64,000 nt of DNA from Anastatus disparis. Lineage: Eukaryota > Arthropoda > Insecta > Hymenoptera > Eupelmidae. Shown here in pieces: positions 1-49,772 of this stretch. Numbering within the stretch: position 1 is the stretch's first letter; each line of letters opens with the position of its first letter. The stretch covers positions 5,278,001 through 5,342,000 of the forward strand of contig JAFFSR010000343.1 in assembly GCA_017163975.1 (NCBI GenBank), given 5' to 3'. The notes beneath the pieces are model-generated. The model did not search any database. It was not told the origin of the DNA and saw only the letters and a list, made by a program, of their open reading frames with translations. The position numbers and the translations under genes are program-made.

Positions 1-1
1 T

Positions 2-787
2 AAAAGACTCGGTTTACTAGATATTTATGAGCACGAATTGCAGCTTAAGGACGTTAAACCATTCTTCATCAAACCTTATCCTATTCCAATAAATTATAAA
101 GAAAAGGTAGAAAAAGAAGTCGAAAGAATGCTTGAATTAAAAATTATCAGACGATCAACGAGTCCTTACATCAACCCATTGGTTACTGTGATAAAAAAGG
201 ATGGCTCAGTTAGATTATGCCTAGATGCTAGGAAACTTAATGAAAAGCTCATTAAGGATCACGAATCGCCACCAGGAATTGAGGAAATATTTCAAAGATG
301 CCAAGACATAAAATATATGTCAAACTTTGATTTAACTAGCAGTTTTTGGCAGATAGGTTTACATGAAAACAGCAAAAAATACACTGCGTTCATGGTAAAT
401 AACAAGGTGTACGAATTCAATATGGTACCTTTCGGTACATCAACCAGTAGTGCCGCTCTTATAAAGAGTTTGGACTTAGCTATAGGTGATTTACACCATT
501 CAGTTATAGCATTTGTTGATGATTTATTGTGTATTTCACAGAGCTTTGAACAGCACCTAGAACATTTAGAAGAACTATTCAAAAAATTGGAAAAACACAA
601 TTTAAGATTGAATTTCAAAAAATCAAATTTTGTACAGAAAGAAGTACAATTTTTGGGTCACATCTTATCAGCAGAAGGGCTTAAACCTCAACCTGAAAAG
701 ATTCAAGCAATAAAAGATTTTAAGAGACCTATTAATAAAAAACAATTGCAAAGTTTTCTAGGTTTCGTAAATTTTTATACAAAATGA
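2..787 (+). pseudogene. pol: Ty3/gypsy reverse transcriptase (partial, decayed)
   Basis: This is the reverse transcriptase part of a Ty3/gypsy pol gene, which copies element RNA into DNA. The frame is open from the window edge, so the 5' part lies outside. Visible marks are the substrate-loop region (STSPYINPLVTVIKKDGS), motif A with the catalytic Asp in NFDLTSSFWQI, and the metal-binding box VIAFVDDLL, followed by the FLGHILSAEGL thumb-proximal motif. The frame ends with TGA directly after FVNFYTK, where related elements continue toward RNase H, so this copy cannot make a full polyprotein. RNase H and integrase follow on the same strand, as expected for gypsy order RT-RH-IN. Family assignment is firm; the clade (Osvaldo-like is possible) is inference. 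Confidence 0.9.
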
Positions 788-859
788 AACTATTCCATTA
801 TTAGAATTATTATAGAAAGAAAATAGTTTCATATAGAAGGTAGAGCAAGAAAATGCATT

Positions 860-1300
860 TAATAAAATAAAAGAATTATTTATAAAAAATATAATGCTGA
901 AATTTGCAGATCCTAGAAAGCCATACGTTCTGACTACAGACGCAAGTGATTATGCTGTAGGAGCAGTATTAAGTCAAAAGAATGAACTAGATGAAGAAGA
1001 GGTCATTACCTTTATATCAAGAACATTAAAAGGATCTGAAGTAAATTATTTCACTACAGAAAAAGAGATGCTGGCAGTAGTATGGGCCCTAGATAAATTA
1101 AGTACATATTTACTAGGAGTAAAGAAAATAATCTTAAAAACAGATCATGAAGCATTAATTTTTTTAAGAACATGTGAATTCTCGAATGCTAGATTAAGAA
1201 GATGAAATCTAGCAATTCAAGACTATAATATAAATTTAGAATATGTACCAGGTACAAAGAATATCATTGCAGATTTTTTAAGTAGATGTGATGCTATTAA
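860..1300 (+). pseudogene. pol: Ty3/gypsy RNase H domain (decayed)
   Basis: This is the RNase H domain that removes RNA from the RNA:DNA hybrid. The acidic residues of the fold are present: TDASDYAVGAVLS (first Asp), TTEKEMLAVVWAL (Glu) and LKTDHEALIF (second Asp). A TGA at about 1203-1205, where related proteins carry Trp in the RRW motif, interrupts the frame; the sequence after it still reads through the conserved end (VPGTKNIIADFLSR). It continues the reverse transcriptase frame logically but is separated from it by a stop and a short frame loss around 785-890. Confidence 0.88.
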
Positions 1301-1364
1301 AACAGATAATGAAATAATCATATCTAGTTTATTAGCAAAAAATCCATCGAAAGAATTAAGAAAT

Positions 1365-2468
1365 ATGTTCAATTCCTTAGCAGAATTACAAAATAAGGAC
1401 TCAAGATTAAGAAAAATTATCGAGAGATACCTTAAAAATGAAGAAAAAATAATCAACAGATATAAAATAATAAATAATATTTTATATGTGAAAGCTAGAC
1501 AAGATTACGTTCAGATTGTTTTACCAGATGAAGTAACAATGTGTTTAATTCAAGAGATACACGAAATATATGGACACATTGGATCTAAAAAAATAATTAG
1601 GATGATAAGAGAGGATTTTGCTACACATAAATTAAGAAAAAATGCAACAAGATTCACTTCAACTTGTGATGTATGTCAAAAGAGTAAATATATTAATACA
1701 AAATATAATATTCTATATCAGCCTATAATAGCTGAAAAACCGAACGATTTATTATCAATAGATTTTTATGGACCCTTACTTACATCCAGGGGGGGTACCA
1801 AGTATCTACTGACAACTGTTGATGTATTTAGCAAGTACGTGGTACTATACCCGATAAAAAGAGCAAATACTCCAACAGCCATAAAGAAAATTATTGAAGA
1901 TTATGCAAAAAATTATGGTAAACCCAAGAAGATCATATGTGATCATGGTACTCAATTCACATCTGATGAATGGGTCAATTGTTTAAAAAACAATGATATA
2001 CAATTAGTATATTCATCTGTGAGACACCCACAAAGTAACATTGTGGAAAGAATTCATAGAGAAATAAGGAGATTCTTTAGAATTTTTGTAAAAGAGAATC
2101 ATCAAGGATGGGCAAGATATGTAGAAATTATTCAGAACATTATGAATGAAACACATCATGAAACCACTGAATATACTCCCATTGAATTACACATGAATAA
2201 AAAACCAACTAGATTCTGGAAAAAATGGTTAAGAATAGAGGAAAACCGAGAGAATAATCTAGAAGAAAAAATTTTCTTAGCATATAAAAATATAAAAGAA
2301 AAATTAAACAAGAAAAAAGAAAAATTTAATAAAGATAAAGAGCACTTTCAGTTTAAAATCAATGAAAAGGTTCTTTTAAAAGCAAATTACCTATCAGAAA
2401 GTAGTGAAAAAAAAATTGCAAAGTTTTTTGTGATTTACGAAGGACCGTACATCATAAAAAAATCATAG
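1365..2468 (+). pseudogene. pol: Ty3/gypsy integrase (nearly intact domain)
   Basis: This 367-codon frame carries a complete retroviral-type integrase. It has the HHCC zinc-binding region (HEIYGH near residue 64, CDVC near 105), then the D,D-35-E core: LLSIDFYGPL, IICDHGTQFTS and SNIVERIHREIRRFF, and a basic C-terminal tail. The enzyme inserts element DNA into the host chromosome. The frame stops at 2468 but coding-like sequence with frame changes continues to about 2560. No stop breaks the catalytic core, in contrast with the two upstream pol domains, but without intact RT and RH the copy is not autonomous. Confidence 0.9.
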
Positions 2469-2674
2469 GTCCAGACACCTATATTTTAATGAACGAAAGG
2501 GGGAAAGAAAGAGGAACTTTCCATACTTATCATTTAAAAAAATATTATACGAATTAAGAAAAAAGTAAAATTAATAAACAAGAAATAATACATGGTACAG
2601 AAGTAGTTTATTCCATGGAATCACTAGATAAAAGCTAAAAAATAATAGAGATGTCAGATAATTTTTACTTTTAT

Positions 2675-2872
2675 CTAAGGGGGCTATGTAGACGCAGAAG
2701 CCACGAACGAATTAAAATTTTTTCTATTTAAATAGAATGCATATTAGAAAAAGAAATACAGATTCTAAGAGAAAAAGAATTGTCTAGAATATTCGATTTT
2801 CAAAACAAAAAGAAATCGAATATTCCATAAAATAAATTCAAAAATAAACAGAGAGAGGCAAGTACTATAAAA
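2675..2872 (+). promoter_or_regulatory. Polypurine tract, LTR start and TATA promoter
   Basis: A polypurine tract (AAGGGGGCTA, about 2678) is followed at 2687 by TGTAGACGC, the usual form of a gypsy LTR start, about 200 bases after the end of pol. A TATA box (TATAAAAGG, 2866-2874) lies 180 bases into it. I read this as the start of a 3' LTR with its U3 promoter. The right end of this LTR could not be found. The alternative is that 2687 is a chance purine tract and that the real 3' LTR is the one at 4590. Confidence 0.5.
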
Positions 2873-2940
2873 GGCCCAGCAAAAATAAAAGGAACACCAG
2901 TGTATAAATTAGTAGCCAAAAGAAAAAGAGTTCAAAGGTC

Positions 2941-3748
2941 ATGGCTAGTAAAGTCGACGTGCAAACATATACAGAAGATTTTGGACGTTGCGACGCAGCG
3001 ACGCAAGGAGAAGACGTTCAGTTTTTCCCGAGGACATTACATTGGATAGCAAAGAGGAAAGCAAGTACCAAGACGTATGAAAAGTCCACAAGAAAGCCGA
3101 AAATTGAAAAGGAAAAGCTAAAGAGAAAGAAAACACAGACGAAACCAATAAATACATGGAATGAATGGACCCAATACGATCTTGGTGACTTGGAAGACCG
3201 ACCACCGATGAAAATAATTATACGAAGGAGGGCAAAAAGGAGCCGAGATGAGAACAAGCCATACGATCCGGAGATGCCCGGTACCTCATATGACGAGTAT
3301 GAACCTCAAATAGTGTCATTAAAAAGGTAATGAAATACCTAAAATATTATTTTAATAATAAAATAAAAAGATTTTAATTTGAAAAAGAAAAGAGAAAAAA
3401 TTATAAAATAAATTGAAAAATAGAAAGAAAAGATTAAAGTATTTAGAATAGAGAAAAAATAAAATAAATAGAAGGCAATACTAAGGGAACAAATATTATA
3501 TGTTTCTCATTAGACGCCAAGATGAACTAGAGGACGAGGAACATCAACAAAGAGAGGCAACAGCTAAACGGCAAAAGCAACACGATGAGTGGAAAATGGT
3601 CCAGGACAAATATGAGACTCTATTGGATTTTGCAATACAGGAGATAGAAACAAAAGTAAATAAAAAATTGAGTGAACAAGAACTCAATACATTGCAATTA
3701 AATGTAGAAAGAGAGTTAGACCAATGGGTCAGAGACTTAGTTAAATAA
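2941..3748 (+). CDS. Two-exon gene of unknown function linked to an LTR
   Basis: Two reading frames join across a GT-AG intron (3327-3513, 187 bases): exon 1 is 2941-3326, exon 2 is 3514-3748, and the junction keeps frame, giving 206 residues. The donor reads AAAAAG|GTAATG and the acceptor TTTCTCATTAG|ACG. The first half is strongly basic (RRRAKRSRDE near residue 113), with an acidic N-terminal patch; the second half is charged and looks alpha-helical or coiled-coil. A TATA box lies 75 bases before the ATG and a poly(A) signal 56 bases after the stop. Base composition is less AT-rich than the flanks. I do not recognise the family. It may be an accessory gene of the gypsy element, encoded in or behind its LTR, or an unrelated small gene. 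Confidence 0.5.
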
Positions 3749-3803
3749 AAGGAAAAGAAAAAACTTTTCTAGTTAAAATATATTCTATTTTATTGTAGAT
3801 AGA

Positions 3804-3840
3804 AATAAACCTCCTCTCTGTTTTATTGTTTTATGTGTGT
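3804..3840 (+). terminator. Poly(A) signal with GT-rich downstream element
   Basis: AATAAA at 3804-3809 is followed within 30 bases by a T/GT-rich stretch (TGTTTTATTGTTTTATGTGTG), the normal layout of an animal cleavage and polyadenylation site. It closes the two-exon gene just upstream and would also serve an LTR transcript. Confidence 0.5.
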
Positions 3841-4580
3841 CCAAATCTGTAAATGTAAAAATAAAAATAAAAAGAAAACGATCAACGAGACATCCAGTGG
3901 GAAGCTGAAAGAATAAGAAAAAAATAAATCTAATTTAGTTAAATTTTTATTATTACTATTATTATTAATTAATGTTAAAATATTAACGTTTTTATCTTTT
4001 CAAGTAAAATTTTTATAATTTTAATTTGTTAAATATTCTAATTGTTTATTTTATTAAATATAATTAATTGATTTTATTTTAATTTTAAATACACTAAATA
4101 ACTTTAAAGAGTTTAAATTCATTACTTAAGAATAAGAAAAATAAAACAAAAAGAAAAAGAAAAAAATAATAAATAGACTAGACATTTAAATGCGATCGAG
4201 TGTTTGTGTTTACAAACGCTGGCCATGTGGCTCAGTATGAAAACAATAAACACAAGCACGCGACCAGCCGTCAAACGAGGGTTTTTAATCTTCTAAGAAA
4301 TAACGAGCATGCAAAGCCGTTTAAATGTAACTATTTAAAATATATAGAAAATATTTATGTTTCGAAAAAATTTAAATGTATTTAAATTACTATGTGAATA
4401 TAATTGAATGTTGAGTTTATACAATTTAAGATTGTTTTTATTAATAATTAAGATTTATTAAAATAATAAATACAAACATTCACTTATATAACGTCAAATT
4501 TGTTTAGAGATAGAATTTAAAATCTTTACATGTTCTTAATTAAACGATACTTAGTAGGTAAACGATTTTCAATTCTATCT
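3841..4580. other. AT-rich stretch without a recognisable gene
   Basis: The sequence is mostly A/T runs. A short less AT-rich island at 4190-4330 gives a 61-codon frame starting at 4200, but it has no recognisable motif and no support beyond its length. Confidence 0.4.
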
Positions 4581-4748
4581 GGGGGGCTATGTAACGGCTC
4601 ATATTAATTTGTTACAAATTAATTTTATTTAATAAAGAATAGGTCAAAAGAATGAATATATTTAAATAAAAAATAAAAATAATTTGAAAATAATAAGTTT
4701 AAATTAGAGCATCCAGATTACCGATCTAGACCGGTAATGAAGATAACT

Positions 4749-4779
<31 letters not shown>

Positions 4780-5974
4780 GATATAAGAAAATAAATAGAA
4801 AAATAGAATGTTCTGTTTCCTTTAATAAAAACATAATTAATCTCTTATTGTTAATTACAAAATATAAACGTAAAAAAAAAACAGAACATTTCATTCCTAT
4901 AATATGTATAAAAGAAAAAAGATTATTATGGTAAGAATTAAAATAGAAAAGATGAACTTTTTTAAATAATAAACAAAATAATTGATAAATTAAAGATTAA
5001 AATTATGTTAGCAAACAAATACTTTAACTACAAAAAATTATAGGAAATAAAATGTTTTCTTCGAAAGCATTCTACTTCTTATTTAAAAAACGAATGTTCC
5101 ATATCTCTTAATACTATCAATATTAAATTGGTAATAATAAATAAAATAAAATATAATTGTTATGATTAAGGGAGCATTCCTTTTTTATAATAATAACCTT
5201 TGATGACTATGAGAGAAATATAATGTTATTTTTATCAATATTTTAAATTAAATAATAAATAATAAATCAAAGTTATAGAACATTCTATTTCTCTTATAGA
5301 ACATCATCGAAGGTACATCAAATGGTATAAAAAGGCCTGCGACGAGCCAAGAGGGATCATTCGATCTTATACCGTCAAAGGCATAAGACCTTAGCACTCT
5401 GTGTTAAAATTTACATCATATTGTTAAATGTATAAAATATAAATTTCTTCAATCAATAAAAGACAAAAGATTCAAGTTTAAATGAGACTATGTTGCAGTT
5501 CATTTAGAATAGTACAACTCATCTCATTTCATACATTATTTGTCATAGAATAAGTAAATAAATTAATTATCGCACATTGAAAAGTATTGCACTTGGATAT
5601 GTCGTCGATAATAATTTATTTAGTCATATGTCATTAAATAAAAGTGTTATTTATCGCACATTTAAGAGTATTGCACTCAAAGATGTCGTCGATTTAAACA
5701 CTTTTCTGCATTTTTCATATAATAAAAAAGTTCATTATCGCACTCTTTAGAGTATTGCACTCAACGGAGTCGTCGATAATAACTTTTAACAATATTACCC
5801 TCTCCTCCACACGTAAAGAAAATTATAAACTATCGCATCTCCAAGAGTATTGCACTGGAGGAGATCGTCGATAAATATAATTTTCTTTGATAATATTGTT
5901 GTATGCACCTTGTATATGCATGTAATAGATTTAATTAATGAAGTACATTTAAATTCGGTAATTAGAATATTACC
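4581..5974 (+). mobile_element. Probable LTR (LTR-A) with promoter, poly(A) signal and hairpin array
   Basis: A polypurine tract (GGGGGGCTA, 4581-4589) is followed by TGTAACGG at 4590. A TATA box (TATAAAAA) is at 5326-5333 and a poly(A) signal (AATAAA) at 5455-5460, giving a U3-R-U5 order. Four tandem hairpins occupy 5555-5888. A primer-binding-site-like sequence (TGGTGACCGTGA, 5975-5986) lies just past a weak end (ATTAC). The offsets of TATA (736) and AATAAA (865) from the LTR start nearly match those of LTR-B at 18245. Having both a polypurine tract before and a primer site after one LTR suggests a rearranged or tandem element. The right boundary is inferred. Confidence 0.5.
5555..5888 (+). 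ncRNA. Array of four covarying RNA hairpins (array A)
   Basis: Four hairpins lie at 5555-5622, 5640-5705, 5726-5787 and 5815-5888, separated by 17-27 bases. Each has the fixed elements TATCGCA, GTATTGCACT and TCGTCGAT. Around them the bases differ but still pair: basal stems TAAATAAATTA/TAATTTATTTA, AAAAGTGTT/AACACTTTT, AAAAGTT/AACTTTT, AAAGAAAATTATA/TATAATTTTCTTT; middle stems ACAT/ATGT, ACAT/ATGT, ACTC/GAGT, ATCTCC/GGAGAT; apical stems AAGT/ACTT or GAGT/ACTC closing a five-base ATTGC loop. Such compensating change shows selection on structure, at least before duplication ended. The array sits near the 3' end of LTR-A, so the transcript leader would carry it. Function is unknown; packaging, dimerisation or reverse-transcription control are guesses. 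Confidence 0.65.
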
Positions 5975-5986
5975 TGGTGACCGTGA

Positions 5987-6860
5987 AAAAAGTCAAGCCC
6001 GCTTCAAAATGAATAAAACAGTTTACTTTTTGTTATTTAGACTACAAAATATTCAAGTAGAATCAAGGTTAAGATACACCGAAAAAAAAATTGTATATAT
6101 GTGTGTATATCTAAACATACTGACTGTAATATAGATTTCTAAATAACTTTAAGAAATAATAAAGTATTAAATTGCTTTTATACTTTTGAATTAGTGTACG
6201 AATTATTACCTAATAGTTAAAAATACTTGAATTCATTGCTACATAATGCTCGCTTGCTTTCTTTCTCTCTCGCACTCGCACGCCGCTTCTTCCACGCACT
6301 CAAATATTCGCTAGCGCGCAAGTCCACTACTCTGTGCGCCAACACACTACAGCCGCCACAATTTTAATGAAATTTTTATTAATTTTTTATGAATTATTGC
6401 ATTGTTGCGCAAACTTTTTACCGGGAATAAGAACAAATCATACATTCACCTCGAGAGAGAAGTCAACCATCAATTGTTCGCGTATTCACTCTCCTCGCTC
6501 TACTCGGGGAGGGGGGAGAGGCAAACCACACGCGAGCATTTAATGGTAAACTTCTCTCCCTTGGTTAATAATGTACTATATTAATTTTAAATTTTTTGGA
6601 AATTTTAATTTTACACTATTTTCATAATTTGGTACACTAAACTTCATCTTTTATTAAAAAAAAAAAGTTTTTGTAGTCACTAAGTCGTAAGTTCATAATA
6701 AAAGTTATGTTCTGTAATCAAAACATTGACAACTAAACATATACATAGATATATTCTGAATGATAATAATATATCTATGTATATACGCCGCAATGACAGA
6801 TGTTGCTCGTAATGCTGCCCTCTCACGGTTTAGATTGCTCATTAATTATCCTAATATGTA

Positions 6861-6915
<55 letters not shown>

Positions 6916-7068
6916 AGCGTACCTGTTTCAATTGAAATTCCCTTTTAGTCACATGTCCTATTTGGTTTTATATCCCTTTTGGTTGAATACCTTTCGGTAC
7001 CTGATATAATGAACCCTAGCTTCTACGTATCTTCAACTATTAAAAAGAATTATAAAAAACTAACTAAA
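5987..7068. other. No supported gene; GC-rich island and TA microsatellite
   Basis: A 94-codon frame at 5850-6134 overlaps the last hairpin and has no recognisable motif. A CT-rich, less AT-rich island spans 6240-6560 and resembles insect 5' flanking or leader DNA, with no clear TATA box or gene after it. A TA microsatellite fills about 6872-6914. Confidence 0.35.
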
Positions 7069-7814: not shown

Positions 7815-7987
7815 GTGTTCGAATGTTAGATGGACCTGTAAATGATGCAGTGGAAGCGCGTGCATTGGGTTTGAATCCAGATCACATTGATATTTACAGT
7901 GCTTCATGGGGTCCAGAGGACGATGGAAAAACAGTAGATGGACCTGGCCCGTTGGCTCGACGTGCATTTATTTATGGTGTAACTAGC
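7815..7987 (+). CDS. Furin-like proprotein convertase, single internal exon
   Basis: This 173-bp exon encodes part of the subtilisin-like catalytic domain of a furin/PCSK serine endoprotease, which cleaves proproteins after basic residues in the secretory pathway. The acceptor is TATCTATAG|GT and the donor AGC|GTAAGTA; the exon starts with two bases of a split Gly codon and ends in phase 0. Diagnostic residues are [15 protein letters not shown] and [18 protein letters not shown], followed by [13 protein letters not shown], which recalls the Drosophila Furin-2 type. None of the catalytic Asp, His, Asn or Ser lies in this exon. I found neither the preceding nor the following exon, so either the introns are very long or this is an isolated exon copy. 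The sequence itself shows no defect. Confidence 0.9.
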
Positions 7988-8126
7988 GTAAGTACATACT
8001 TTTTACATTTTTATTTTCATTTCTAGTTATATTCTTACTTATAAGGTGAGTTAAATAAAAACAAGTCACACTTGAAATTTTGTTGAAAGGAGTTTTGTAA
8101 AAATATAATTTTTACAGAAATTTTAA

Positions 8127-26320: not shown

Positions 26321-29307
26321 GGCTGATTCCATTTCAAATCGAACAGTCAGTATACACTCAAGTCACCAATTACTGCGCTAATGGAGTATGTTATTCTACC
26401 CTAAAAATAAGGGTATACGTATTTTTTTATTTTGCTGAAATATCAAAATTGCATCAGATATGCACTTTTGAAAATTGCATACAAAAACTAAATGTTAAAA
26501 CTGAAAATGTTGAGAATAACTTTAGAGAGCTATCGTTTTACTGATTTCCAATGAATTTTGATAAACCTTTTTTTATTTTATTTCATTTTGAGCCCTCTTC
26601 AACTCCGTGCAAGAAATTTAAAAAAAAACTAAAAAATGACTGAGATATATGCATTTTACCAAAAAATGCACTTCTTATGCACATGCATTTTTCTCGAAAA
26701 AGCCATTTTTATTTTTGCTGAAATTTTTTTTGCTGATAGAGGATCAAAATACCTATCTAATAGTACTTGTTTGATCCCGGGTTTTTTGGTCTGGAGCGAG
26801 AAAAAAATTCACAAATTTTGTTGGTGAAAAATGCTTGTATATACGTTCGGAAGTCTTAAGCAGTCGACATTTAAATATTATCCTTCGTTTAGCGTTATCC
26901 AGGAACAACGACGTGGACGTAGAAGGATTCTGTTCCCTTCAGGGTGCTTTTTTAGAGCGAGTTCCCCTTGCCTCTCACTGTTGGGATGCGTCAAAAAAAT
27001 AATTATAGATAATTATTTTTTTTTATTTTTGCGCTTATTATTTTTAGTTTTAAATGTAGTCTCACGACGCTTGGCTTTTTTTTCTTGTTTTTCACTTCAT
27101 TTAGTGCATGTATAGCTGTCCTGCCAATAAATATATGTGATTTTAATTCCCCAAGTTTTTTTAACCACATATGACTTTTTTGAATTCCATTATATTTAGA
27201 AACCCCACTCCATTCAATATTTTTCTTTTTTCTAAATCTTTCAATCTCGATTCTTTATGAACTCTTTTCAAGTTATGTAAAGTAGCATAATGTTTTAGAA
27301 GCCCACTTATTCCATCAACGGCTCCTTTCCCATGACCAGTCGCAGAAAATAACCATTTCATTTCATAAAACCAATGTTTGAATTCATGTAGTTGAAAACG
27401 ATTTTTAAATTGGCTTGGAGCTCCATCTGATATGATAGTGACTTTAGTAACTAAATAATTCTTTTTCATAAGATCAATAATTTTATTTATTGCTAGCAGT
27501 GCATATGCAGTATCATGCTTTTTGTCGTCACTAACTATCGCAAAACTTTGTGTTATCTCTCCTTGGTAACAGACTGCAGTAAAAATAGAAATTTGGTTAT
27601 TTACCCAATGATTTCCTTGAACCGCTTTATTATTTATTACAGACCAATTTTCTGCAAAGTCAACGTGGATGATTAACTTAGTAGGATCAGCTTTACCTTC
27701 TTCTTTTTCTTTTTTTATAGCTTCACGTTGAATATTTTTTATATATATATGAGTACTTGCTTTCAATGCGCAGATTGAAAGTTTTTCTTTAAAAACTGTT
27801 AAGCTTATTGTTTGTTTAATAAGATTACCATTATCCCACAAAGCAAACGTAATTTCATCTTCACAATTTTGTTTCAGTTTTAACGATTCTAATGTGATAC
27901 CCGCACCACCGGGACAATCTTTGCATTCTTGCAAGAAACATGAATCAGATGGTTCAGAACACAACATTGTGTTAGTTATTTCTGAACGAATTGAATCTAA
28001 TTCGGAATTCTTATCGCCTCTAAAACGAATCAAACTTGTAAGAAACAGTTCAAAATTTTCGCAATGTACACAAAGACAAGCTTCCTTCACAGGGCTAGTT
28101 AAGACGAAACTTGGTCTTAGACTATAGAATTTCGATTTTCCTATTTGTAAGTTTGGATTTTCTTTTCTTAATTGACTATATGTTTCTTTTAAGATTCGAG
28201 TAAGAAACCGTTTGACTTTTTTAGTTTTTGTGTTATTAATTTTAACAGTTACGACATCAGATTTATTTGGACTTTGTCTACTACAATTAAAATCATCATT
28301 TAAAAAATATTCCATAACGATATTTTTTGTGCTTTCATCAATAGGATGACCAGTATATAAATCTGGCTCCGAATAAATTCCTTTATTTTTCACGAAATTT
28401 CTTGATTTATTTATCATATACTCGCTTATATTCGGGAATAGTGAGCAAACTTTTATTTTGCTTAATTTTGAAGGTAGTAGAGTTAGAAGTTTTATTTTCT
28501 CCGAAATAGAAGAGCATTTTTCTAAAGCCAATTTAAAATTTTCTAAAAATTCATTCCAATAGTTTTCAGTGGAATTTTCGTCCGATTCTATTGATTCAAC
28601 TGAAATGCCATACGCATCTTCTAATTTACTTCCAACAGTAGCAGAAAAAGCTGAAATTAAGGATTTTTTCTTTTTAGATACGTAATTTCCTCTAAAATTT
28701 TCAGGTGTTGCAGTTTTTCTTTTTAGGGGTGAGATGCATTCAGGTAAAACTGAATTAATACTCTCGTTTAATTCCTCTATTCGTTCGGGTGTCTTCGGAA
28801 TAAAATAATCATCTCTTCCGCTAAAAAGTTCAGTGATTTCATTTTCAGATATAGACTCAAGATCACTTAAAATCATTTTTGATATGCGTTTATGGCAATT
28901 TTTACATACATTAGTAGATGGCAATATATTTAAATCTGGATGAAGCTGTGCCAAATTAATGGCTAAATCTTCCAACGGTCTAAAACGTGAATTACTGCTC
29001 ATATAAACTACCTTTTTATGCATTTCAAAAAAATCGGGACATGAAATTCTTTTAGAAGAGTAAATTTCGGACATTGTTATTTCACAATTTTGTTGAATTT
29101 TTCACAAGCCCGAGAAGCACCTTTCAAAGCAGCCGTAAAAATAACTAGCTTCTATATAACAGTTCTAATATGCTGTTTTGGTTACGCGATGTATTTGTCC
29201 GCGAGTTAGCCTCCTATTGTTTGTACATCGAAACATACATAATATAGATATACACGAATAGAATTTTTTTTTTCATGTTTAAATATTTATTTTTATATTA
29301 CGAATTT

Positions 29308-31012: not shown

Positions 31013-31964
31013 TATTACTTTGAATTTGTGATGTTCAAAGATTAAAACTTTGAGTAAATGATTATGTTTTAATATTTACAGATTATTAGATTACAAGTAT
31101 ACATAAAATGATCTAATGCTTTATCTGACAACAAAAACACATGGCCAAAAGTCAAGTTTTCATGATTTTTTTATATTATTACAGGTAAGTCTGTCGATTT
31201 CTTTTCTATATCGGGTTGTTTCAGATTTCCGGCGGATGTCAGAGAACGACGGAGAGTTTTTTGTCTGATGTGAGAGAAAAAGATAGAATACGAATCTGCG
31301 ATTGCTAATAAGTGAGAGAGAGAAAGAGAGTATAGAAAGTGAGAAAAAGAAAGAGAATACGAGTTATATCTATTAATAATGAACGCATGTATTTAGGCGA
31401 ATACTTTCAAAACATGCTAAATAAATAAAGACATCGCGTAAATAAGCAATATAAGAATTTAGTATCCCGTTCTATATAGCTGACGAGCTGCCGCGAAATC
31501 ATGAGCGTTCATGTGATCAGTTCGCGCATGCGCAGTAAAACGTCCCGTTCATAAAATTCAACAGTTGAAAGCGGCAAAATTCAAAAGTCGGTAATACCAA
31601 TTTGGTATTTAAAAATGAAAATAACAACGAATGAAAAAGTAATATTTGCATATTTTAAAACATTCTTAATTAATTAATTAGTTTTTCATACGATATTTGG
31701 TGACAAAATAAGTGTTATAATAGTTGATTAATTTGAAAGTGTAGAAGAAAATAAGATTAAAATTTTTTTGAAAACAAATATTTTATAATAATAATAAATA
31801 TATATAAATTAGGTACAATTAGCTATAAAATTAGTGTTGTTATATTAAAGTATCAGATTATCGGTAAAGTTAATAAATCTATTGAGAGAAGAACTTTCGA
31901 CTTTGAAAAAGTTGTGATATCTCTCCACAAAAAACCTTTAAAAAGGTAAAATTATGGCAAGTTA

Positions 31965-33030
31965 GCTTTAAAAAAAATCTTTTACACTATCTCAGAAATA
32001 AAAAATACTTTGTCAAAAATTTAAACTAATTTAATACAATCAACTATAAAAAAAATCTATTATATCTCTAAAAAAAGGCTTTAACATTATAGATAATAAA
32101 TAAGTGGGAATTCAATTATAACAAAAATACACTTGAAAAAATACTGAAATCAATAATTTGTGGTCAAGTTTTCATATGATTTAAAATAATACTTACAAAT
32201 GATATTGTACCTATATTTTGATGGTAATAATGAATCAATAAAAAATTTCTTTGTTAAAAATAAAGTATAAAAAAAGCCATATAAAATGTTATTGAAAATA
32301 TAAAACTATCTTTAACAAAATTTAAAAAAATAAAACTTTAATTTAAATAATTAACGTAAAAGTAAGAATAAAAGTAATATTACAGCTATAAACTTGCCAG
32401 ACCCACCCTTCAAAATTTATATTTCTTGGTGAACACACATTCATTTAAAACATTTTTTAGGATCGACTTTTTAGAATCTCGCAAGGAAATTAAAAATATA
32501 TATTAATTTTCACAACTTAGTATTCAATAAACAAATAATCTAATTTTATAACACTAATGATATATTTAACTTTTGTAGAGTGGGCCTGGCAAGTTTATAG
32601 CTGTAATATTACTTTTATTCTTACTTTTACGTTAATTATTTAAATTAAAGTTTTATTATTCTTTTTAATTTTGTTGAAGATAGTTTTATATTTTCAATAA
32701 CATTTTATATGGCTTTTTTTATACTTTATTTTTAACAAAGAAATTTTTTATTGATTTATTATTATCATCAAAATATAGGTACAATATCATTTGTAAGTAT
32801 TATTTTAAATCATATGAAAACTTGACCACACATTATTGATATCAGTATTTTTTCAAGAGTATTTTTGTTATAATTGAATTCCTACTTATTTATTATCTAT
32901 AATGTTAAAGCCTCTTTTTAGAGATATAATAGATTTTTTTATAGTTGATTGTATTAAATTAGTTTAAATTTTTGACAAAATATTTTTTATTTCTGAGATA
33001 GTCTAAAAGATTTTTTTTTAAAGCTATTTA
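31965..33030. repeat. Long fold-back, about 440-base arms
   Basis: The left arm (31965-32404) contains ATTGTACCTATATTTTGATG and ends GCTATAAACTTGCCAGACCCAC; the right arm (32580-33030) begins GTGGGCCTGGCAAGTTTATAGC and repeats everything in inverse. A 175-base spacer separates them. No terminal motif or target duplication was assigned and no gene is present. Confidence 0.75.
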
Positions 33031-33509: not shown

Positions 33510-34216
33510 TTAACTATCACATTTCCGAATACGTGAAACAGCTACGTAAAATCGAACATGGGTAAATAAATCGTTTCGTAAATCTAATCCAATATTAATA
33601 AACGTTTGACCCTGAGCTTTATTGATACTCATTGCGAAAGCCAATTTAATTGGAAATTGCCTTTTCTTAAATTTAAATGAATAATCATTTTCAGAATACA
33701 AAGTAATTCGATTTATAAATATAATATCGCCGGCTTTGTCACCTGTTAATATCACACATTTTAATAAATTATTACTTCCAATATACGTAATCGTGTACTA
33801 TTACACAATCCTTCATTAAGCCTAATATTCGTAATGAGCATTACAATATAATTAATTTTTAAATGTGAAATATAAGAAGGTAAACTGGAAGGATTTAATG
33901 AATTTAAATATTCTGGCATTAAAACATCAGTCATTGATCCGATATCATCGCAATTATCAACTGAATCAATACTTGTGTAAAAACGTTTACCGCAACTATC
34001 TAACATGGATACAGCTTCATTGTGAATTTCATCAACATCAACATTACGGGGTGATAATATTGCAGAAGAACTAATTTCATGAAATAACTCATTATTAATC
34101 AAATCACTAAATATATATTTAGCACTACTAACATTGCTCATTATACAATGTTCAGGAATCGTAACGTAATCATTAGCATCATTAAGTATACCATTACCTA
34201 CATCGAGAACAAAGGG
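33510..34216 (-). pseudogene. Helitron helicase C-terminal part (decayed)
   Basis: Minus-strand frames encode the end of the PIF1-type helicase of a Helitron, which unwinds DNA during rolling-circle transposition. From upstream to downstream they show LDVGNG-like sequence, LPSYISHLKINYIVMLITNI with LNEGLCNSTRLRI, then FPIKLAFAMSINKAQGQTF and the arginine-finger region FYVAVSRI. A frame change separates the two halves near 33758. The 5' part continues beyond the palindrome inserted at 34219-37573. Confidence 0.85.
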
Positions 34217-34218
34217 TA

Positions 34219-34992
34219 CCCCCCGTTAAGATAGGTAAAATGCCCTCCCTCATATATTTTAAAACTAATATTTTTTCTTGTTTTTATAGTAATTAAGATT
34301 AGGTTTTGTTATATTTATAGTTTCCTAACACATACCCTAACCTCAATATAACCTAAAAATCACTTTTTTTATAAAATTTTTTTTTTATCTGGAAGGATGA
34401 ATAATATTAATCCCGCGAAAAACATATGACTAGGTCTTAGCACTCTCTTCAACTGTGATTTTTTGCGAGTCCTAGAAAGCAGTTTTTCTAACCTAAAAAT
34501 AACATTTAAATCATAAAATCTCCGTAACTTTGCTCTGGGAGGGGCTACAAGTAATTTTCTGGGCTTGAAATTTGTATTTTTAAAAAACAAATAAAGTTTA
34601 TGATAACCAAAAATTCGATTCTGGCATGGCGCCATGGCGAAAAACTCGAAAAACCATTTTTTCATAGGTTTTCTGTCGGTTATTGGTCTCTAGCAACTCA
34701 CAAATCATTTTTAGAGAAAAAAATATAGCTTCATTGGATTCTACGTGAAAAAATACATTAAAAATGTGCATGATTACTTTAGGAATACTTGGATGCTGTT
34801 ACAAAACAATTAAAAAAATAAAATAATTCTGAAATTATTACATATCTACTTTGCATCGTTGCTGCATTTTATGTTTTTATGACTTTGGTCATCTCTTTAG
34901 AGTCTCAAAGCTACTATTTAATGTATTCATAGGCAAATGACGTCCACTGTACGCGAAAAACAGAGACAAATACTAGACAGATAACTATAACT

Positions 34993-35032
<40 letters not shown>

Positions 35033-35711
35033 GAATAACTTGCTATCCCTCGTATATACATAAGGAATAGTGCGTTGTTCTTAGGAAACGCAAATTATTT
35101 TTCTTATACATAGATAAAAAACCAATGTTTATCTATTCCTGTAACTATTTTTTTAGTGTTCTTTTTTAGCTTGTAAGAGACCTAACATGTTTTCTGTCCT
35201 CCATAAATCACGAACTCGGTAGATTTGAACAATTAAATGATTCTAATTAGGTTCCAAATTCAAAAATTAAAAGATCATCATCTCTTTAGAGTCATAAAGC
35301 TACTATTCGATGTATTTACAGCTAAATTACGCCTATTGCACGCCAAAATAAGATTTTTAAACATAACTGAAGTAACGGTCGTATCATCTGTCTTTTTGTA
35401 TTACAGTAGACTCTGGATACAAGAGAATCAACGGGCCTTCAGGAGAGGAATTTTCTTGAAAATTCTCTCATACAAAGAGTCCCCAACACGCTCGAGTCAA
35501 AAGTGATACCCACACCTACTGTTTTGTTGTGTGAGTTGTATCCAACATGCGTGTATATTCTGTCTCTCTCACTTTCATAGTGGTGGGATTACGCAAATAC
35601 TTGGGCTCACGCCCATATTTAGGAGAAAGAGCTCGAAATCTCTTATATCGCAATCTCTTGTATCGAGAGATCACTGAATCATTAGAGAGACAAAGACGGA
35701 ATAAGGTTTTA

Positions 35712-35792
<81 letters not shown>

Positions 35793-35836
35793 CAAAGAAT
35801 AGTGAGCTATTGCTAGGAACTCTAGGAGCTATTGCT

Positions 35837-35885
<49 letters not shown>

Positions 35886-37573
35886 AAGAATAGTGAGCTG
35901 TTGCTAGAAACAACGCGCTTGATTCTCATATATGTAGAAGCAATGTATTCCTTATATCGGTTGCTATTCTATTCTTTGCGTATAATGGCCTGAAGACAAA
36001 TCATAATTGTGGCAGTTCTAACAAAGAATATAAATGCTTACATAGAAGTGTACTTTCAGGCTCGAATTTATAGACCCAACACGATTGTTACTAAAACCTT
36101 ATTCCGTCTTTGTCTCTCTAATGATTCAGTGATCTCTCGATACAAGAGATTGCGATATAAGAGATTTCGAGCTCTTTCTTCTAAATATGGGCGTGAGCCT
36201 AAGTATTTGCGTTATCCCACCACTATGAAAGTGAGAGAGACAGAATATACACGCATGTTGGATACAACTCACACAACAAAACAGTAGGTGTGGGTATCAC
36301 TCTTGACTCAAGCGTATTGGGGACTTTTTGTATGAAAGAATTTTCAAGAAAATTCATCTCCTGAAGGCCTGTTGATTCTCTTGTATCCAGAGTCTACTGT
36401 AATACAAAAAGACAGATGATACGACCGTTACTTCAGTTATGTTTAAAAATCTTATTTTAGCGTGCAATAGGCGTAATTTGGCTGTAAATACATCGAATAG
36501 TAGCTTTATGACTCTAAAGAGATGATGATCTTTTAATTTTTGAATTTGGAACCTAATTAGAATCATTTAATTGTTCAAATCTACCGAGTTCGTGATTTAT
36601 GGAGGACAGAAAACATGTTAGGTCTCTTACAAGCTAAAAAAGAACACTAAAAAGAATAGTTACAGGAATAGATAAACATTGGTTTTTTATCTATGTATAA
36701 GAAAAATAATTTGCGTTTCCTAAGAACAACTCACTATTCCTTATGTATATACGAGGGATAGCAAGTTATTCCACATATATATATATATATATATATAGGA
36801 GTTAAAGTTATCTGTCTAGTATTTGTCTCTGTTTTTCGGGTGTAGTGGACATAATTTGCCTATGGATACATTAAATAGTAGCTTTGAGACTCTAAAGAGA
36901 TGACCAAGGTCATAAAAACATAAAATGCTGCAACGACGCAAAGTAGCTATGTAATAATTTTAGAATTATTTTATTTTTTTAATTGTTTTGTAACAGCATC
37001 CAAGTATTCCTAAAGTAATCATGCACATTTTCAATGTATTTTTTTACGTAGAATCCAACGAAGCTATTTTTTTTTTCTCTAAAAATGATTTGTGAGTTGC
37101 TAGAGACCAATAACCGACAGAAAACCTATGAAAAAATGGTTTTTCGAGTTTTTCGCCATGGCGCCATGCCAGAATCGAATTTTTGGTTATCATAAACTTT
37201 ATTTGTTTTTTAAAAATACAAATTTTAAGCCCAGAAAATTACTTGTAGCCCCTCCCAGAGCAAAGTTACGGAGATTTTATGATTTAAATGTTATTTTTAG
37301 GTTAGAAAAACTGCTTTCTAGGACTCGCAAAAAATCACAGTTGAAGAGAGTGCTAAGACCTAGTCATATGTTTTTCGCGGGATTAATATCATTCATCCTT
37401 CCAGATAAAAAAAAATTTTATAAAAAAAGTGATTTTTAGTTTATGTTGAGGTTAGGGTATGTGTTAGGAAACTATAAATATAACAAAACCTAATCTTAAT
37501 TACTATAAAAACAAGAAAAAATATTAGTTTCAAAATATATGAGGGAGGGCATTTTACCTATCTTAACGGGGGG
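34219..37573. mobile_element. Giant palindromic element inserted in the Helitron
   Basis: Ends are CCCCCCGTTAAGATAGG and its inverse, flanked by TA on both sides (34217-34218, 37574-37575). The two arms match to the base over long stretches (for example a 98-codon frame appears once per arm at 34369-34665 and 37128-37439). Each arm contains an imperfect internal duplication (CATCTCTTTAGAGTC). Total 3355 bp. A second palindromic element, 35404-36399, occupies its centre. No transposase is coded. Confidence 0.85.
35404..36399. mobile_element. pogo-like palindromic element nested at the centre of the larger palindrome
   Basis: Ends are CAGTAGACTCTGGATACAAG and its inverse, flanked by TA (35402-35403, 36400-36401). 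The arms match to about 35714 and from about 36090; between are two long TA microsatellites (about 35715-35787 and 35843-35882). The distances to the ends of the outer element are 1185 and 1174 bases, so it sits on the outer dyad axis. Confidence 0.75.
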
Positions 37574-37575
37574 TA

Positions 37576-40250
37576 CTCTTTAGCGAATTCTATTTCATTA
37601 TTTGCAACTTGCGTATTATGAGTTAATCGATGTACATAAAATGTATTCCAAAGATGACTTTTCTTGATAGATAAACTAACAATTCCATTTTGAGTTCCAC
37701 GTGGTAATACACGTAATAACTGTTGAAAATCACGTCCCAATATTATCATTTTACCTCCAAAAGGTAAAATGATAATATTAGGAGGATAGATCATTATTCA
37801 TCATATCTTTTAATGTTCTTTCCATAACTTCTGTTGCATATCGAGCTGACATAGGAGCTTCATCTCAAATAAATGCATCTGCATATTTTAAAAATTCACC
37901 TTCTTTCGATTAAAAAGTAACATTAGATGAAGAATCTGGTAATAAAAGAACGGGTACTCCTAATGCATTGTGAACAGTCATACCTTCAGGCAACAAAGTA
38001 GCTGCAATAACAGTAAAAGCCATAGAACAAACATTTTTATTATATCCTCTTAACAAATTATAAATAATGTTATAAATATATGTCTTACCATTACCACTAG
38101 GTCCATTGATATAATAACATGACAAATATGCAATATTTTATTAACAAAACATTTTGGTTCTATATTTAATTGATTGTATAACTGCTTTCCAATAAGTTAA
38201 TAATTATCAACTAGAATATTATATAAATAGTCGTTATCCATCATTATACTCTCAAACATAGAAGAAAAATCTGTTATAGAACGGCCTCATTTAATTAATA
38301 TTTCGTAAATATCAATATAAGCTAAATTATGAGTCCTGTTACGATCGATTATTGAATAATCTTTTGAAAAAGAATCTTTACAATTATTCAATAGCTGTTC
38401 AGGATAAATAGTAAACAATATGATGAAAACACGGACGAATAATCGTTGTGAATTATATGGCATCATCCAAATAACAGCTTCTTGAAGTGCACGCTTCCAT
38501 TCATTATTATCTCTAATTAAACTTTAAGCTAAACATGCTTCAGGAGATGTAGTATATTGAATTCCATTGACATTTTTTTAATGATCAAAACTGATGACAC
38601 TTTTCACTCGGGTGGGGCTCGAACATTAGAATGTTTTTTATTTAATTAACATTTATTTAGAAGTTCATATAAATTATGTGCATATCGAGACTGTTCATTT
38701 ATTTATTTTAGAATTTTCATTTTTTCAGCAACTGAAGTAACGAAAATAACTAATGCGAGTAAAGCATTTTAGAATATTCACTTTATCGAAATAAGAAGTA
38801 GCAAAATAAATGTACTTCTAAATTTAGAATAAACTATATCAAGATTTCGAAAGAATTCTAAATATTTTAATCGAATAATTTGAGATTATCAATACTGCTT
38901 TTTGAAATCATGAAAATTCGTTATTACTTTATTCTTAATTATGGAATACGCTATTCGTAATTGTGGCACTTTAAATAAATATTCATTAAATAAAAAACAT
39001 TCTAATGTTCGAGCCCCACCCTTTCACACGTAACAATAATAATCGCAAACGATATAATTCAATTTGACTCGGATTGACTGAATTTCGGCTGATATAATTA
39101 AAATGTTTCGTACGTTGAATCCATCAAAATACAGAATTAACACCAATCTTTTGCTTTTTAAAGACATTATGATGTGGAATCTCTACATATAAATATCGTC
39201 TAGCAGATTCATCTCTTCAGTTCAATTCAAAATAATCTATTAACATAGAACCTCTGCTTAATGCGGACGCTAAAGTATCATCATTATGCTCTATTAATAC
39301 TGTCTGTTGATTGAATAAATGGTCAGGTAATATGACGACACTATGACTTTGAAATTGAAAAGGTATACTTAATATACGATAACAGGCTTCAACAGGACTA
39401 ACGTAAAGACTTTCTATAAAATTAGATATTTCATCATGATTAATGATAGATTTATTTGAAGTATTTCGATCATAATTGTAGTAGCATCTTGACCCTTATA
39501 AACATATTCAAATAAATATTTAACTGATTGCATGCTAGAAACTGCTTTCACATTTGTATGACAATTGAACCTACGCAATAAAAATGGACATAAAAGAACA
39601 ACATATCGATTATCAATAATTCTATTTCGACGAAGGACGTTCCGCCCATTATTACGATGCCTATAATAAGGATAACCATCCGCATTCATTATTGTTTCAT
39701 TATGAAATTCTTTAGGATAATGCTTCGAACATTTATCATTTATTATACATCTATTATCACACGGTCCATGAATCATGATATTAGTAACAATGTTATACAA
39801 TTCAAAATCCTCATTGGAATCAGGAATTTCAACTGATATATATTTATCTACTATTTCAGGTGTAGGATGTAATCCGCGCTTTTGAAACTCCACAACATGC
39901 ACACACGGAAAAAAGTTTTCATCAATAAAATCAACACTACACGTAGAATGTTTCATTTCTGTGATAAAGTATTAAAAAAACAATGAGATAGTATTATTTT
40001 AATAAGTGCCATCCATCGAATTTTAGCTACTAATGTTGGTACCGGTATATTAAGAACCGAGCGCGTGAAATTCTGATACGTAGTACCTATTTTTTCGGTT
40101 CTACAAATAATATTTCCACCTTCTTGGTTCAGCAGCAATATTTCGCGTACCGCGTATCTAATTCTTAATTCCTTAGCACTGATGACTCTTTCCGTACTAT
40201 GCATAAAAAACAAGATACCTTGTTTTATGATCATATTTTCATAAATCATA
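37576..40250 (-). pseudogene. Helitron Rep and helicase N-terminal part (decayed)
   Basis: Read on the minus strand from 40250. The Rep region has VVEFQKRGLHPTPEIVDKY: the expected HUH motif (two His after RGLP) is missing, apparently by deletion, while the flanks are conserved. SMQSVKYLFEYVYKGQD carries the Tyr region near 39500. Many stops follow. The helicase begins with Walker A GPSGNGKTY (about 38090) and reaches LLRVLPRGTQNGIV and NNEIEFAKEY at 37580, where the palindrome interrupts. A hAT MITE (38610-39021) lies inside. Without HUH residues this copy cannot nick DNA. Confidence 0.82.
38610..39021. mobile_element. hAT-type MITE in the Helitron
   Basis: Ends are GGGTGGGGCTCGAACATTAG and its inverse, with an eight-base near-duplication (TTTCACTC at 38602-38609, TTTCACAC at 39022-39029), the length typical of hAT elements. 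412 bp, no coding capacity. Confidence 0.75.
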
Positions 40251-44259: not shown

Positions 44260-44324
<65 letters not shown>

Positions 44325-44326
<2 letters not shown>

Positions 44327-45980
44327 GGCGTTTCATATCAACTCACCTGGTCAAAAAATAAAAATCGCTAAAAATCTGGGAAAATGTTCTATTTGATACC
44401 CAAAATGCCCAAAAAAATTTTTAGACCTCTAGGTCAAAGAGGTCAAGAGCAAGAGGTCATGGAGTTTTGTGATTTTTTCAATTTTTTTGTAAAATCATCA
44501 TTTTTAATATTTTTTTATTAAAGAACTAAAGGTTTTAGAAAAAAATGTATGAAGACATTTTTTGTTGGAAATTATGTGTAGAAACTATACAAATTTTTTC
44601 CAATCCCAAAGTTGCTATCTTCTGATTGGTCCATTATATATTTTGATGTGATTTTCAATAACTTTTCTTCGCCAAGGTTGATTTTACTCATTCGGCACTA
44701 AAAGTTTGTAATTTTTATAACCTTTCACTGAAATTTTCCCCTACATGGTAAAATAACTCTACAGGCAGTTATGGTACTTTTTATTTAAGGTATCAAGACT
44801 GAGTTTTAAGCCTGAAAAAAAATGAAATTGAAATGTAGTCATAATTTGTTTTTGTAATGATATTAATTAATAAAACTTCTTTTTACCTTAAATATATATT
44901 AAATACAAGACTTTGACCTAAAAATAATTTTAAAAATCCCCATCCGTTGGTTAAAATCCTTTGCTCTTGTCGATAACTTGATTTTTAATATTTTTTTACT
45001 TACCGTAGAGTTTCTCAGCTAATTTTCAATTAATTGACCTGAAAATTTCCAGAGATCTCTAATTTATATATCTTCACAAAATAATAGTTTTAGTTTTAGG
45101 AAAAAAAAATAATTTCTAAGTTTGGTTTAGAAAAAGTTGAAAAAAATCAATATTTTTGTGAATTTCATACAAGTAATTCAGTTCAACATTTACTTTAACT
45201 TATCTTATCAAAATTCCAGAACTATTATTTTGTGAAGATATATAAATTAAAGATCTCTGGAAATTTTCAGGTCAATTAATTGAAAATTAGCTGAGAAACT
45301 CTACGGTAAGTAAAAAATTTTAAAAATCAAGTTATCGACAAGAGCAAGGGATTTTAACCAACGGATGGGGTTTTTTAAAATTATTTTTAGGTCAAAGTCT
45401 TGTATTTAATATATATTTAAGGTAAAAAGAAGTTTTATTAATTAATATCATTACAAAAACAAATTATGACTACATTTCAATTTCATTTTTTTTCAGGCTT
45501 AAAACTCAGTCTTGATACCTTAAATAAAAAGTACCATAACTGCCTGTAGAGTTATTTTACCATGTAGGGGAAAATTTCAGTGAAAGGTTATAAAAATTAC
45601 AAACTTTTAGTGCCAAATGAGTAAAATCAACCTTGGCGAAGAAAAGTTATTGAAAATCACATCAAAATATATAATGGACCAATCAGAAGATAGCAACTTT
45701 GGGATTGGAAAAAATTTGTATAGTTTCTACACATAATTTCCAACAAAAATGTCTTCATACATTTTTTTCTAAAACCTTTAGTTTTTTAATAAAAAAATAT
45801 TAAAAATGATGATTTTACAAAAAAATTGAAAAAATCACAAAACTCCATGACCTCTTGCTCTTGACCTCTTTGACCTAGAGGTCTAAAAATTTTTTTGGGT
45901 ATTTTGGGTATCAAATAGAACATTTTCCCAGATTTTTAGCGATTTTTATTTTTTGACCAGGTGAGTTGATATGAAACGCC

Positions 45981-45982
<2 letters not shown>
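44325..45982. mobile_element. Giant fold-back, family GTTTCAYRTCAACTCACC, copy 1
   Basis: Ends are GGGGCGTTTCATATCAACTC and its inverse. Outer arms are 44325-44788 and 45520-45982, nearly identical. TA microsatellites abut both ends (44260-44324, 45983-46018). The centre is occupied by a GGTATCA element. A diverged copy lies at 48433-49732. No coding capacity. Confidence 0.88.
44789..45519. mobile_element. Fold-back MITE, family GGTATCA, copy 3, at a palindrome centre
   Basis: Starts GGTATCAAGACTGAG, ends CTCAGTCTTGATACC, flanked by TTAA (44785-44788, 45520-45523). Its arms are almost identical, unlike copies 1 and 2. The TTAA it sits in is the symmetric centre of the enclosing fold-back, whose arms are 464 and 463 bases. 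Confidence 0.85.
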
Positions 45983-46020
<38 letters not shown>

Positions 46021-46289
46021 CATACAACATATTTATCTCTATTTATGTTTAAAAAATTTTATAGATTCTAAAATATAGAAAATATTTTGATTTAACTTCC
46101 AACTGTTTTAAAAAAAATTTTTTTAACATTAATAAGTTAACAATATTCATACTGTATATACATTATACACAAAATATTTTTTTGTCACTGACAATTTCAA
46201 TTTAATTTAGGTTTGAAAAATTTTATTTTAATATTATTTTAATTTAACTTGATTAGAAATTGTTTTTCTACAAAATTCAGAGGCAACAT

Positions 46290-48140: not shown

Positions 48141-48432
48141 AATTTTTTTTTGTAGTGAATTAATATTATTTTATATTTTGTATTTTAACTATCATCAATT
48201 TGTTTTTCTGTAACCTTGAAAATTTAATCATTTTATTTTGAGAATATTGTATTTATTAATGTAATGAAATAAAAATATTAAATTATTTAATTTATCTCAT
48301 TCGAAATTATTTCATTTGCTAATATAAGTTCTTCTTCCTCCATGTTTTCATCATTTAATACTTTAGTAAATTCCAATCTTTTTACTTTTAATATATATGT
48401 AATATCTATAAAATTTTTAAATATATATATAT

Positions 48433-49732: not shown

Positions 49733-49772
<40 letters not shown>

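Follow-up and report, generated by a model that had tools for sequence, protein, structure and literature searches.

A tandem hairpin array in the long terminal repeat of a Ty3/gypsy-type element from Anastatus disparis, a candidate leader RNA signal

Repeated hairpins with a GACG tetraloop take part in the packaging of alpha- and gammaretroviruses, as set out in an excerpt of PMC516450. The array considered here, four tandem hairpins in the long terminal repeat (LTR) of a retroelement of the hymenopteran Anastatus disparis, is like these signals in its predicted 5' leader position and in having several hairpins that share a constant loop. It differs from them in that arrays of this kind consist of 3-6 tandem hairpins with two fixed modules each, lie in the putative U5 part of the LTR of a Ty3/gypsy-type element and are known here from sequence. 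The array is part of a 64,000-nucleotide stretch of contig JAFFSR010000343.1 (positions 5,278,001 to 5,342,000, forward strand), called the window below, and coordinates are counted from its first letter.

Three other systems are comparable. Human immunodeficiency virus Rev with its Rev response element (RRE), and Rev-like systems, share with this locus an asymmetric internal loop, an element-encoded arginine-rich protein and an apparently two-exon gene; here, however, no sequence relative was found, the location is the leader and a regular tandem array takes the place of one branched structure. The constitutive transport element (CTE) of Mason-Pfizer monkey virus (MPMV) and related transport elements also carry a repeated constant internal loop on a variable stem, but the CTE forms a single long hairpin close to the 3' end, whereas the present hairpins are separate and placed in U5. 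The genomic RNA signals of Ty3 and Ty1 are likewise expected to bind Gag in the leader RNA of an LTR retrotransposon, and the excerpts of the literature on them that were consulted mention no comparable array.

The array almost certainly represents a structured cis-acting leader RNA. None of the 4227 Rfam models matches the window at its gathering threshold; three matches at E up to 10 in the LTR are all far below threshold, and nothing credible appears there or, at E up to 1, in eight fetched 5' regions. The motif has no match in a viral contig collection (three patterns) or in a genome contig collection (one pattern), and no description of the array came up among the listed open-licence PMC papers on Rev-like proteins, on packaging signals of retrotransposons and on arrays of leader hairpins.

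Fold and conservation of the hairpins

A preliminary description of the window had claimed four tandem hairpins with a fixed core and with stems that vary yet keep pairing, and both claims hold. Four matches to the pattern TATCGCA-N-GTATTGCACT-N-TCGTCGAT are present in the window, all of them inside the array interval, and none in 100 dinucleotide shuffles; all four cores are exactly 42 nt long. Each copy folds into helix P1 (ATCG/CGAT), a C opposite CGT, helix P2 of 4-6 bp, an internal loop of at most 4x4, helix P3 of 3-4 bp and the loop ATTGC, and in all four folds the constant letters fall in the C/CGT internal loop and the ATTGC loop, as had been proposed. The folding energies are -17.9 to -25.6 kcal/mol (z -3.5 to -5.8), with 0 of 200 shuffles as stable for any copy. 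The stem details as described need two corrections: in hairpin 4 the outer P3 pair is G/G, which reduces P3 to 3 bp, and all four hairpins carry an additional 5' base in the basal register.

On the four copies 87.5% of the alignment cells are paired, against a shuffled mean of 76.2%, and the covariation score is 0.458 against 0.171 (0 of 500 shuffles reach either value). Two-sided change is found at 10 of 24 pairs (reached by 1 of 500 shuffles), and there are 12 further pair types (reached by 18 of 500). Pairing falls to 35-48% when the partner is slid by 1-3 columns. The basal stems, read in one common register, have longest runs of 11, 9, 7 and 14 pairs, compared with 3-6 for swapped flanks, and their sum is reached by 0 of 20,000 joint shuffles; with any of nine basal registers permitted, swapped flanks reach up to 10 pairs, the flanks being AT-rich. 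The shuffle controls leave the relatedness of the copies in place.

The exact motif has 1,448 matches in the 939-Mb host genome and none in a reversed control; a looser form has 1,610 and 9, respectively. Among about 100 places listed, the copies cluster in arrays, which are often paired 5.8-12 kb apart. Twenty array regions were fetched, and three LTRs of subfamily A were set against eight of subfamily B (L036, a twin of L035, and the mixed L050 were excluded). Identity between the subfamilies is 56% in the LTR before the array, 78.5% in the array spacers and 90% after the array; the basal stems and the 4x4 loop both stand at 93.1%, P3 with its loop reaches 96.5%, the constant segments 99.6% and P2 100%. 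The array spacers are a fairer control than the pre-array LTR, because the U3 of LTRs turns over fast.

A second LTR family was reached through an accessory open reading frame (ORF) of the window at 2941-3330. A genome search with this ORF gave 43 matches. Eight of them cover residues 6-126, with 38-46% identity, and all but one of the eight are stop-free. The 4.8-4.9 kb downstream were fetched at 12 loci, seven from the 38-46% group and five nearer. A covariance model built from 16 family-1 hairpins finds two hairpins each in six second-family loci (E 1.2e-11 to 6.9e-6), and a letter pattern finds three tandem hairpins per LTR in these 6 of the 7 second-family loci, at the same place in the LTR as in family 1. 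The next 4.7-4.8 kb hold hairpins at two more of the 12 loci (L083 and L086), 7-9 kb from the ORF, which possibly belong to other insertions; no hairpins are found at 2 of the 12 loci in the stretches fetched.

The second family has the same internal loop, TATCGCA/TCGTCGAT, and the apical loop GTAAAGCATC in place of GTATTGCACT. A joint alignment was made of 14 hairpins, a subset of those found (four from the window, four from B copy L046 and six from L071 and L074). TATCGCA and TCGTCGAT do not vary among the 14. P1 is paired in 56 of 56 cells and unchanged; P2 is likewise fully paired (56 of 56) and shows two-sided changes at 3 of its 4 pairs; P3 is paired in 40 of 42, with such changes at 2 of 3 pairs; and the basal stem is paired in 112 of 140, with such changes at 8 of 10 pairs. 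The basal, P2 and P3 scores are reached by 0 of 1000 shuffles, a control in which relatedness again remains. All 8 family-1 rows have the apical loop GTATTGCA-C; of the 6 second-family rows, 5 have GTAAAGCATC and the remaining one is a single letter off. On the 16 family-1 hairpins, 93.5% of the cells pair and 51 cells show two-sided change (0 of 500 shuffles in both cases). Further matches and covariation, which the preliminary description had made the test of its proposal, are thus both present when more copies from the host genome are added, in tests that ignore kinship.

Orthologous hairpins offer a closer view of single pairs. Those of the window and the 20 regions were passed through a script filter, which kept 19 to 21 hairpins. 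One basal pair of hairpin 1 is C-G in 9 copies, T-A in 5, G-C in 4 and A/G in 1; the outer P3 pair of the same hairpin is G-T in 12, A-T in 5 and G-C in 2; one basal pair of hairpin 2 is G-T in 8, A-T in 7 and G-C in 6. The intermediate at these pairs is G-T and never A-C, which fits pairing in the sense-strand RNA; the argument is only suggestive, because A-C mismatches occur elsewhere in the array. The complete two-sided changes in orthologous hairpins, together with a second family that keeps the fold with other letters, bear out the claim that this is a functional RNA fold, and the fold itself is well supported.

These comparisons bear on three alternatives in which the fold is incidental or of another kind. 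Tandem repeats in LTRs and 5' regions can be regulatory DNA, as are the Su(Hw) sites of gypsy, and the array could be a set of tandem, insulator-like binding sites whose hairpins have no role; the presence of A-C besides G-T mismatches agrees with such a DNA-level element. It is nevertheless very unlikely, since two-sided compensatory change in the basal, P2 and P3 stems has no reason in DNA, and two pairs show the full A-T, G-T, G-C series. That the likeness of the hairpins reflects only the youth of a functionless tandem duplication would agree with the variable copy number (six in L038), but divergence among the window copies reaches 39% over 84 nt, the invariant letters lie in loops, the stems covary and both families are tandem. 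The constraint between subfamilies A and B and the covariation of the 14 hairpins already contradict a duplication of this sort, which is hardly credible. Equally hard to credit is a cluster of microRNAs or hairpin RNAs: the hairpins are tandem and about 65-75 nt long, and the constant TATTGCAC resembles the seed of the miR-92 family, but the loop is constant and the arms vary, contrary to the conserved arm and variable loop of microRNAs. Moreover, no Rfam microRNA family reaches its gathering score (the best chance match is mir-3003, E 8.1, on the other strand), and the second family has a different loop.

Two observations may be added. The LTR of L038 (G000:C15:504700-507300) contains six hairpins, units 1 and 2 being duplicated. 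The opposite-strand complement of TATTGCAC would be a target site four times over within 5585-5860 of the window; in view of the different loop of the second family, the match to the miR-92 seed is considered a coincidence.

Placement of the array in the LTR and in the transcript

The features of the element are collected in Table 1. On the reverse transcriptase (RT) and integrase domains in pol (RVT_1, rve and Integrase_H2C2), the array-bearing element is assigned to the Ty3/gypsy-type LTR retrotransposons; the sole insect-named match is a predicted Wasmannia protein with RT and integrase domains. No relatives of the integrase are found in the viral contig collection. The element has the TG...CA ends, the polypurine tract, the tRNA primer binding site (PBS) and the short target-site duplication of an LTR element. 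Target repeats of 4 bp were seen by eye at 8 insertions of other copies read at both ends (3 LTR pairs and 5 single LTRs, one within an AT repeat). In 8 of the 20 fetched array regions, the 5' LTR copies, the terminal CGCTTCA of the LTR leads into AC and next into TGGCGACCGTGACAGGA or a sequence close to it. This PBS complements TCCTGTCACGGTCG, the 3' end of three tRNA-Arg(TCG) genes in the host genome, plus the CCA tail carried by tRNAs. The purine tract GGGGGCTA precedes the 3' LTRs of L034, L035, L038 and L039, as in the window. The array of the window is placed in a 3' LTR on account of the LTR ends, PBS and purine tract of these other copies and of the RT and integrase that stand upstream of it. 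The 5' LTR of the window copy is absent from the 3 kb where copy L082 predicts one.

Table 1. Positions of the element's features in the window
Feature	Position	Strand	Basis or remark
Reverse transcriptase part of pol	2..787	+	RVT_1 on 38-787 (E 1.9e-29)
Integrase ORF	1365..2468	+	rve and Integrase_H2C2
Accessory ORF, likely exon 1	2941..3330	+	129 amino acids, isoelectric point 9.6; second family 40-45% amino acid identity, open frames
Second accessory ORF, probably exon 2 starting near 3514	3500..3748	+	acidic, isoelectric point 4.9; acceptor-like TTTCTCATTAG ends at 3513
Polypurine tract GGGGGGCTA	4581..4589	+	directly adjoins LTR start
3' LTR, 1417 bp, TGTAACGG...CGCTTCA, contains array	4590..6006	+	identical ends in other copies; lengths, alignment
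TATA box, subfamily A	5326..5332	+	missing from five other copies compared
Initiator-like TCATTC, predicted R start at 5359	5357..5362	+	identical in 7 of 8 copies compared; TCATTA in L045
AATAAA poly(A) signal, use predicted	5455..5460	+	113 nt upstream of hairpin 1 core; in 7 of 8 copies (not L049), at most two alignment columns away
Hairpin 1	5553..5624	+	core 5568-5609; pattern and fold
Hairpin 2	5640..5705	+	core 5652-5693; pattern and fold
Hairpin 3	5726..5787	+	core 5736-5777; pattern and fold
Hairpin 4	5814..5889	+	core 5831-5872; pattern and fold
Degenerate PBS copy inside LTR end	5975..5986	+	TGGTGACCGTGA in window, mostly TGGCGACCGTGAATAAAGTC in other copies

The LTR is ordered into a TATA box, a motif that resembles the general initiator consensus, an AATAAA signal, the array (5553-5889), the degenerate copy of the PBS and the LTR end. 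Since the array follows the promoter and poly(A) signals, it is predicted to lie in U5, at about +195 to +530 of the genomic RNA, upstream of the tRNA-Arg primer site. Its location in the LTR is well supported, and the limits of the transcript are deduced from these signals. The LTR end (5975-5994 in the window, and in the other LTR copies) carries its degenerate tRNA-Arg primer site 34 nt ahead of the real one in the 5' copies. The second-family LTR end also has a primer-site copy, TTACCTGGCGACC, followed in copy L073 by the same real primer site.

Some array-bearing copies appear to lack the integrase part. The stretches beside the 3' LTRs of L052, L053 and L054 match window 1-7000 only at about 1-653 and 4393-4983, or less; the arrays are spaced 5.8 kb apart in L052 and L054 and 12 kb in L053. 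The ORFs listed for L052 and L053 comprise Gag-position, protease and cut RT frames, and integrase is absent. The LTRs of one integrase-less copy (L035/L036) are 99.9% identical. Because of this identity, and because the integrase part is absent, the copy has evidently spread recently with proteins from elsewhere. Retention of the array in a recently spread, protein-dependent copy is as expected of a cis-acting signal.

Candidate partners and proposed function

The fixed core had been put forward as a possible binding site for a protein or an RNA, and the orthologous hairpins and the second family support this proposal. The search for complements of the apical loops covered three second-family loci, five 5' regions of family 1 and window 1-6006. 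None of these stretches contains GTGCAAT, GTGCAATA or ATGCTTTA; ATGCTTT is present once (L033), and pieces of 6-7 nt are scattered. A protein partner is favoured, because no 7-8 nt complement of either apical loop was found in these stretches. Dimers formed by kissing of the loops were considered and rejected, as the second-family loop is, by eye, not self-complementary.

The ATCTCC/GGAGAT stem is common to second-family hairpin 3 and family-1 hairpin 4, and such stem letters suggest that the individual hairpins may predate the split of the families. If so, the loop has been rewritten in every hairpin while the stems stayed individual, and this joint rewriting would be explained by a changing partner and not by the copying of whole units. 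The same comparison bears on a host factor as the partner, in which case a host RNA-binding protein would read the internal loop for CTE-like nuclear export, translation control or localisation. The identity of the internal loop strands in 14 of 14 hairpins across families fits a slowly evolving partner, and CTEs are retroelement transport signals according to an excerpt of PMC4488727. The apical loop, however, differs between families and is common within each, which a fixed host partner leaves unexplained, and a host factor of this kind seems improbable.

The element itself offers a candidate protein. The first accessory ORF contains an arginine-rich core, KII(I/V/L)RRRA(R/K)(R/K)SR, which is among the most conserved stretches across both families, and ends in a donor-like AAAAAG/GT at 3326/3327 that is kept in the second family. 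The second accessory ORF has a weak but consistent likeness to frames in 7 second-family loci, with 31-36% amino acid identity along some 45 residues. From these signals we infer that 2941-3330 and 3500-3748 are spliced into one gene. The first ORF differs between the window and L051 by 8 silent and 4 replacement changes, numbers too small for a further conclusion. No homolog of the accessory protein, Rev-like proteins included, was found at E <= 0.001 among 5.8 billion proteins in a search that needs shared 5-residue words, and no Pfam family scores above the cut-off.

A Rev/RRE-like mechanism is one possible use of this protein: the post-pol accessory protein, with its arginine-rich exon 1 and acidic exon 2, would bind the internal loop, multimerise on the array and export or protect the unspliced genomic RNA. 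It would account for a basic, element-encoded protein whose arginine-rich core is conserved across both array-bearing families, and for a two-part gene with a donor-like site in both; hairpins lie downstream of 10 of the 12 accessory-ORF loci, and one of the seven frames of exon 2 shows a crude heptad bias (0.57 versus 0.25). Against it stand the absence of homologs, Rev among them, in the word-based search just described, and the position of the array in the leader and not in an intron. In addition, 2 of the 10 hairpin loci are the distant ones that may be other insertions, 2 of the 12 have no hairpins, and co-occurrence is expected anyway if ORF and array are parts of one element lineage. 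On balance the Rev/RRE-like mechanism, in export or protection of the RNA, is unlikely, though it ranks next after packaging. Slightly more doubtful is the broader proposal that an arthropod Ty3/gypsy lineage evolved its own ribonucleoprotein comparable to Rev/RRE or to Tat and its trans-activation response element (TAR), in which an orphan spliced arginine-rich protein would read the leader array, the internal loop serving as a fixed dock and the apical loop as a family label, rewritten together in each array, for recognition by each family of its own genomic RNA.

The preferred account is that of a protein-bound, cis-acting U5 leader array that marks the genomic RNA, most likely for packaging; taken as a whole we consider it about as apt to be right as wrong, and packaging as the main role is proposed tentatively, with slightly less confidence. 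The array, coming after the R poly(A) signal, would stand in the 5' end of the genomic RNA and be absent from its 3' end and from transcripts that start inside the element. Each hairpin would present two fixed surfaces on a variable helix, the asymmetric C/CGT internal loop and the apical loop, and the presence of several hairpins would permit cooperative binding by an element-encoded protein. The bound protein would then mark the full-length RNA as genome and lead to its packaging by Gag, ahead of priming at the adjoining PBS.

Several points weigh against this account. With regard to the fold, comparison of the window with four B copies shows 1-2 broken pairs in each case, further pair types on the 16 family-1 hairpins are not above shuffles (238 of 500), and A-C or other mismatches occur at four basal or outer pair positions of the 14 hairpins. 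With regard to location, many copies carry another AATAAA close to the end of the LTR, which could place the array in R, and the use of the poly(A) signal is deduced from the sequence. With regard to packaging, Pfam gives no match to the Gag-position frame of L053, and neither this frame nor the stretch from it to the protease contains a CCHC knuckle, so that the usual psi-binding module is not seen there. Finally, a leader position could equally fit a role in translation, export or reverse transcription.

Other features of the window and implications

Within the element, window 2679-2866 holds a second GGGGGCTATGTA purine tract and a TATAAAAGGCCC box upstream of the accessory ORF, possibly an old LTR edge turned internal promoter or a central purine tract. 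In 3 of 8 5' regions (L031, L036 and L040) a stretch that resembles a tRNA and contains GGTTCGAATCC lies about 360-370 nt past the PBS and is possibly a short interspersed element; ARAGORN calls no tRNA or tmRNA in the window or in the eight fetched 5' regions, this stretch included. Beside the element, an ORF at 7823-8026 resembles by eye an exon of a furin-type protease, suggesting a host gene. Farther along the window, long inverted repeats of 86-97% identity over 1.1-1.8 kb (31963-33026, 34211-37581, 44261-46046, 48390-49779 and 56456-57705) are likely foldback elements. Two long open frames on the minus strand, 27161-29074 (637 amino acids) and 61865-63301 (478 amino acids), have no Pfam match at E 0.001.

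The selection of their own RNA by LTR retrotransposons outside the retroviruses is poorly defined. The comparison of two families, with the same internal loop and a switched apical loop, shows which bases matter to test, and the orphan arginine-rich protein is a candidate partner for such tests. If it is true that the array and the accessory protein work together, they would represent an independent origin of retrovirus-like RNA regulation.
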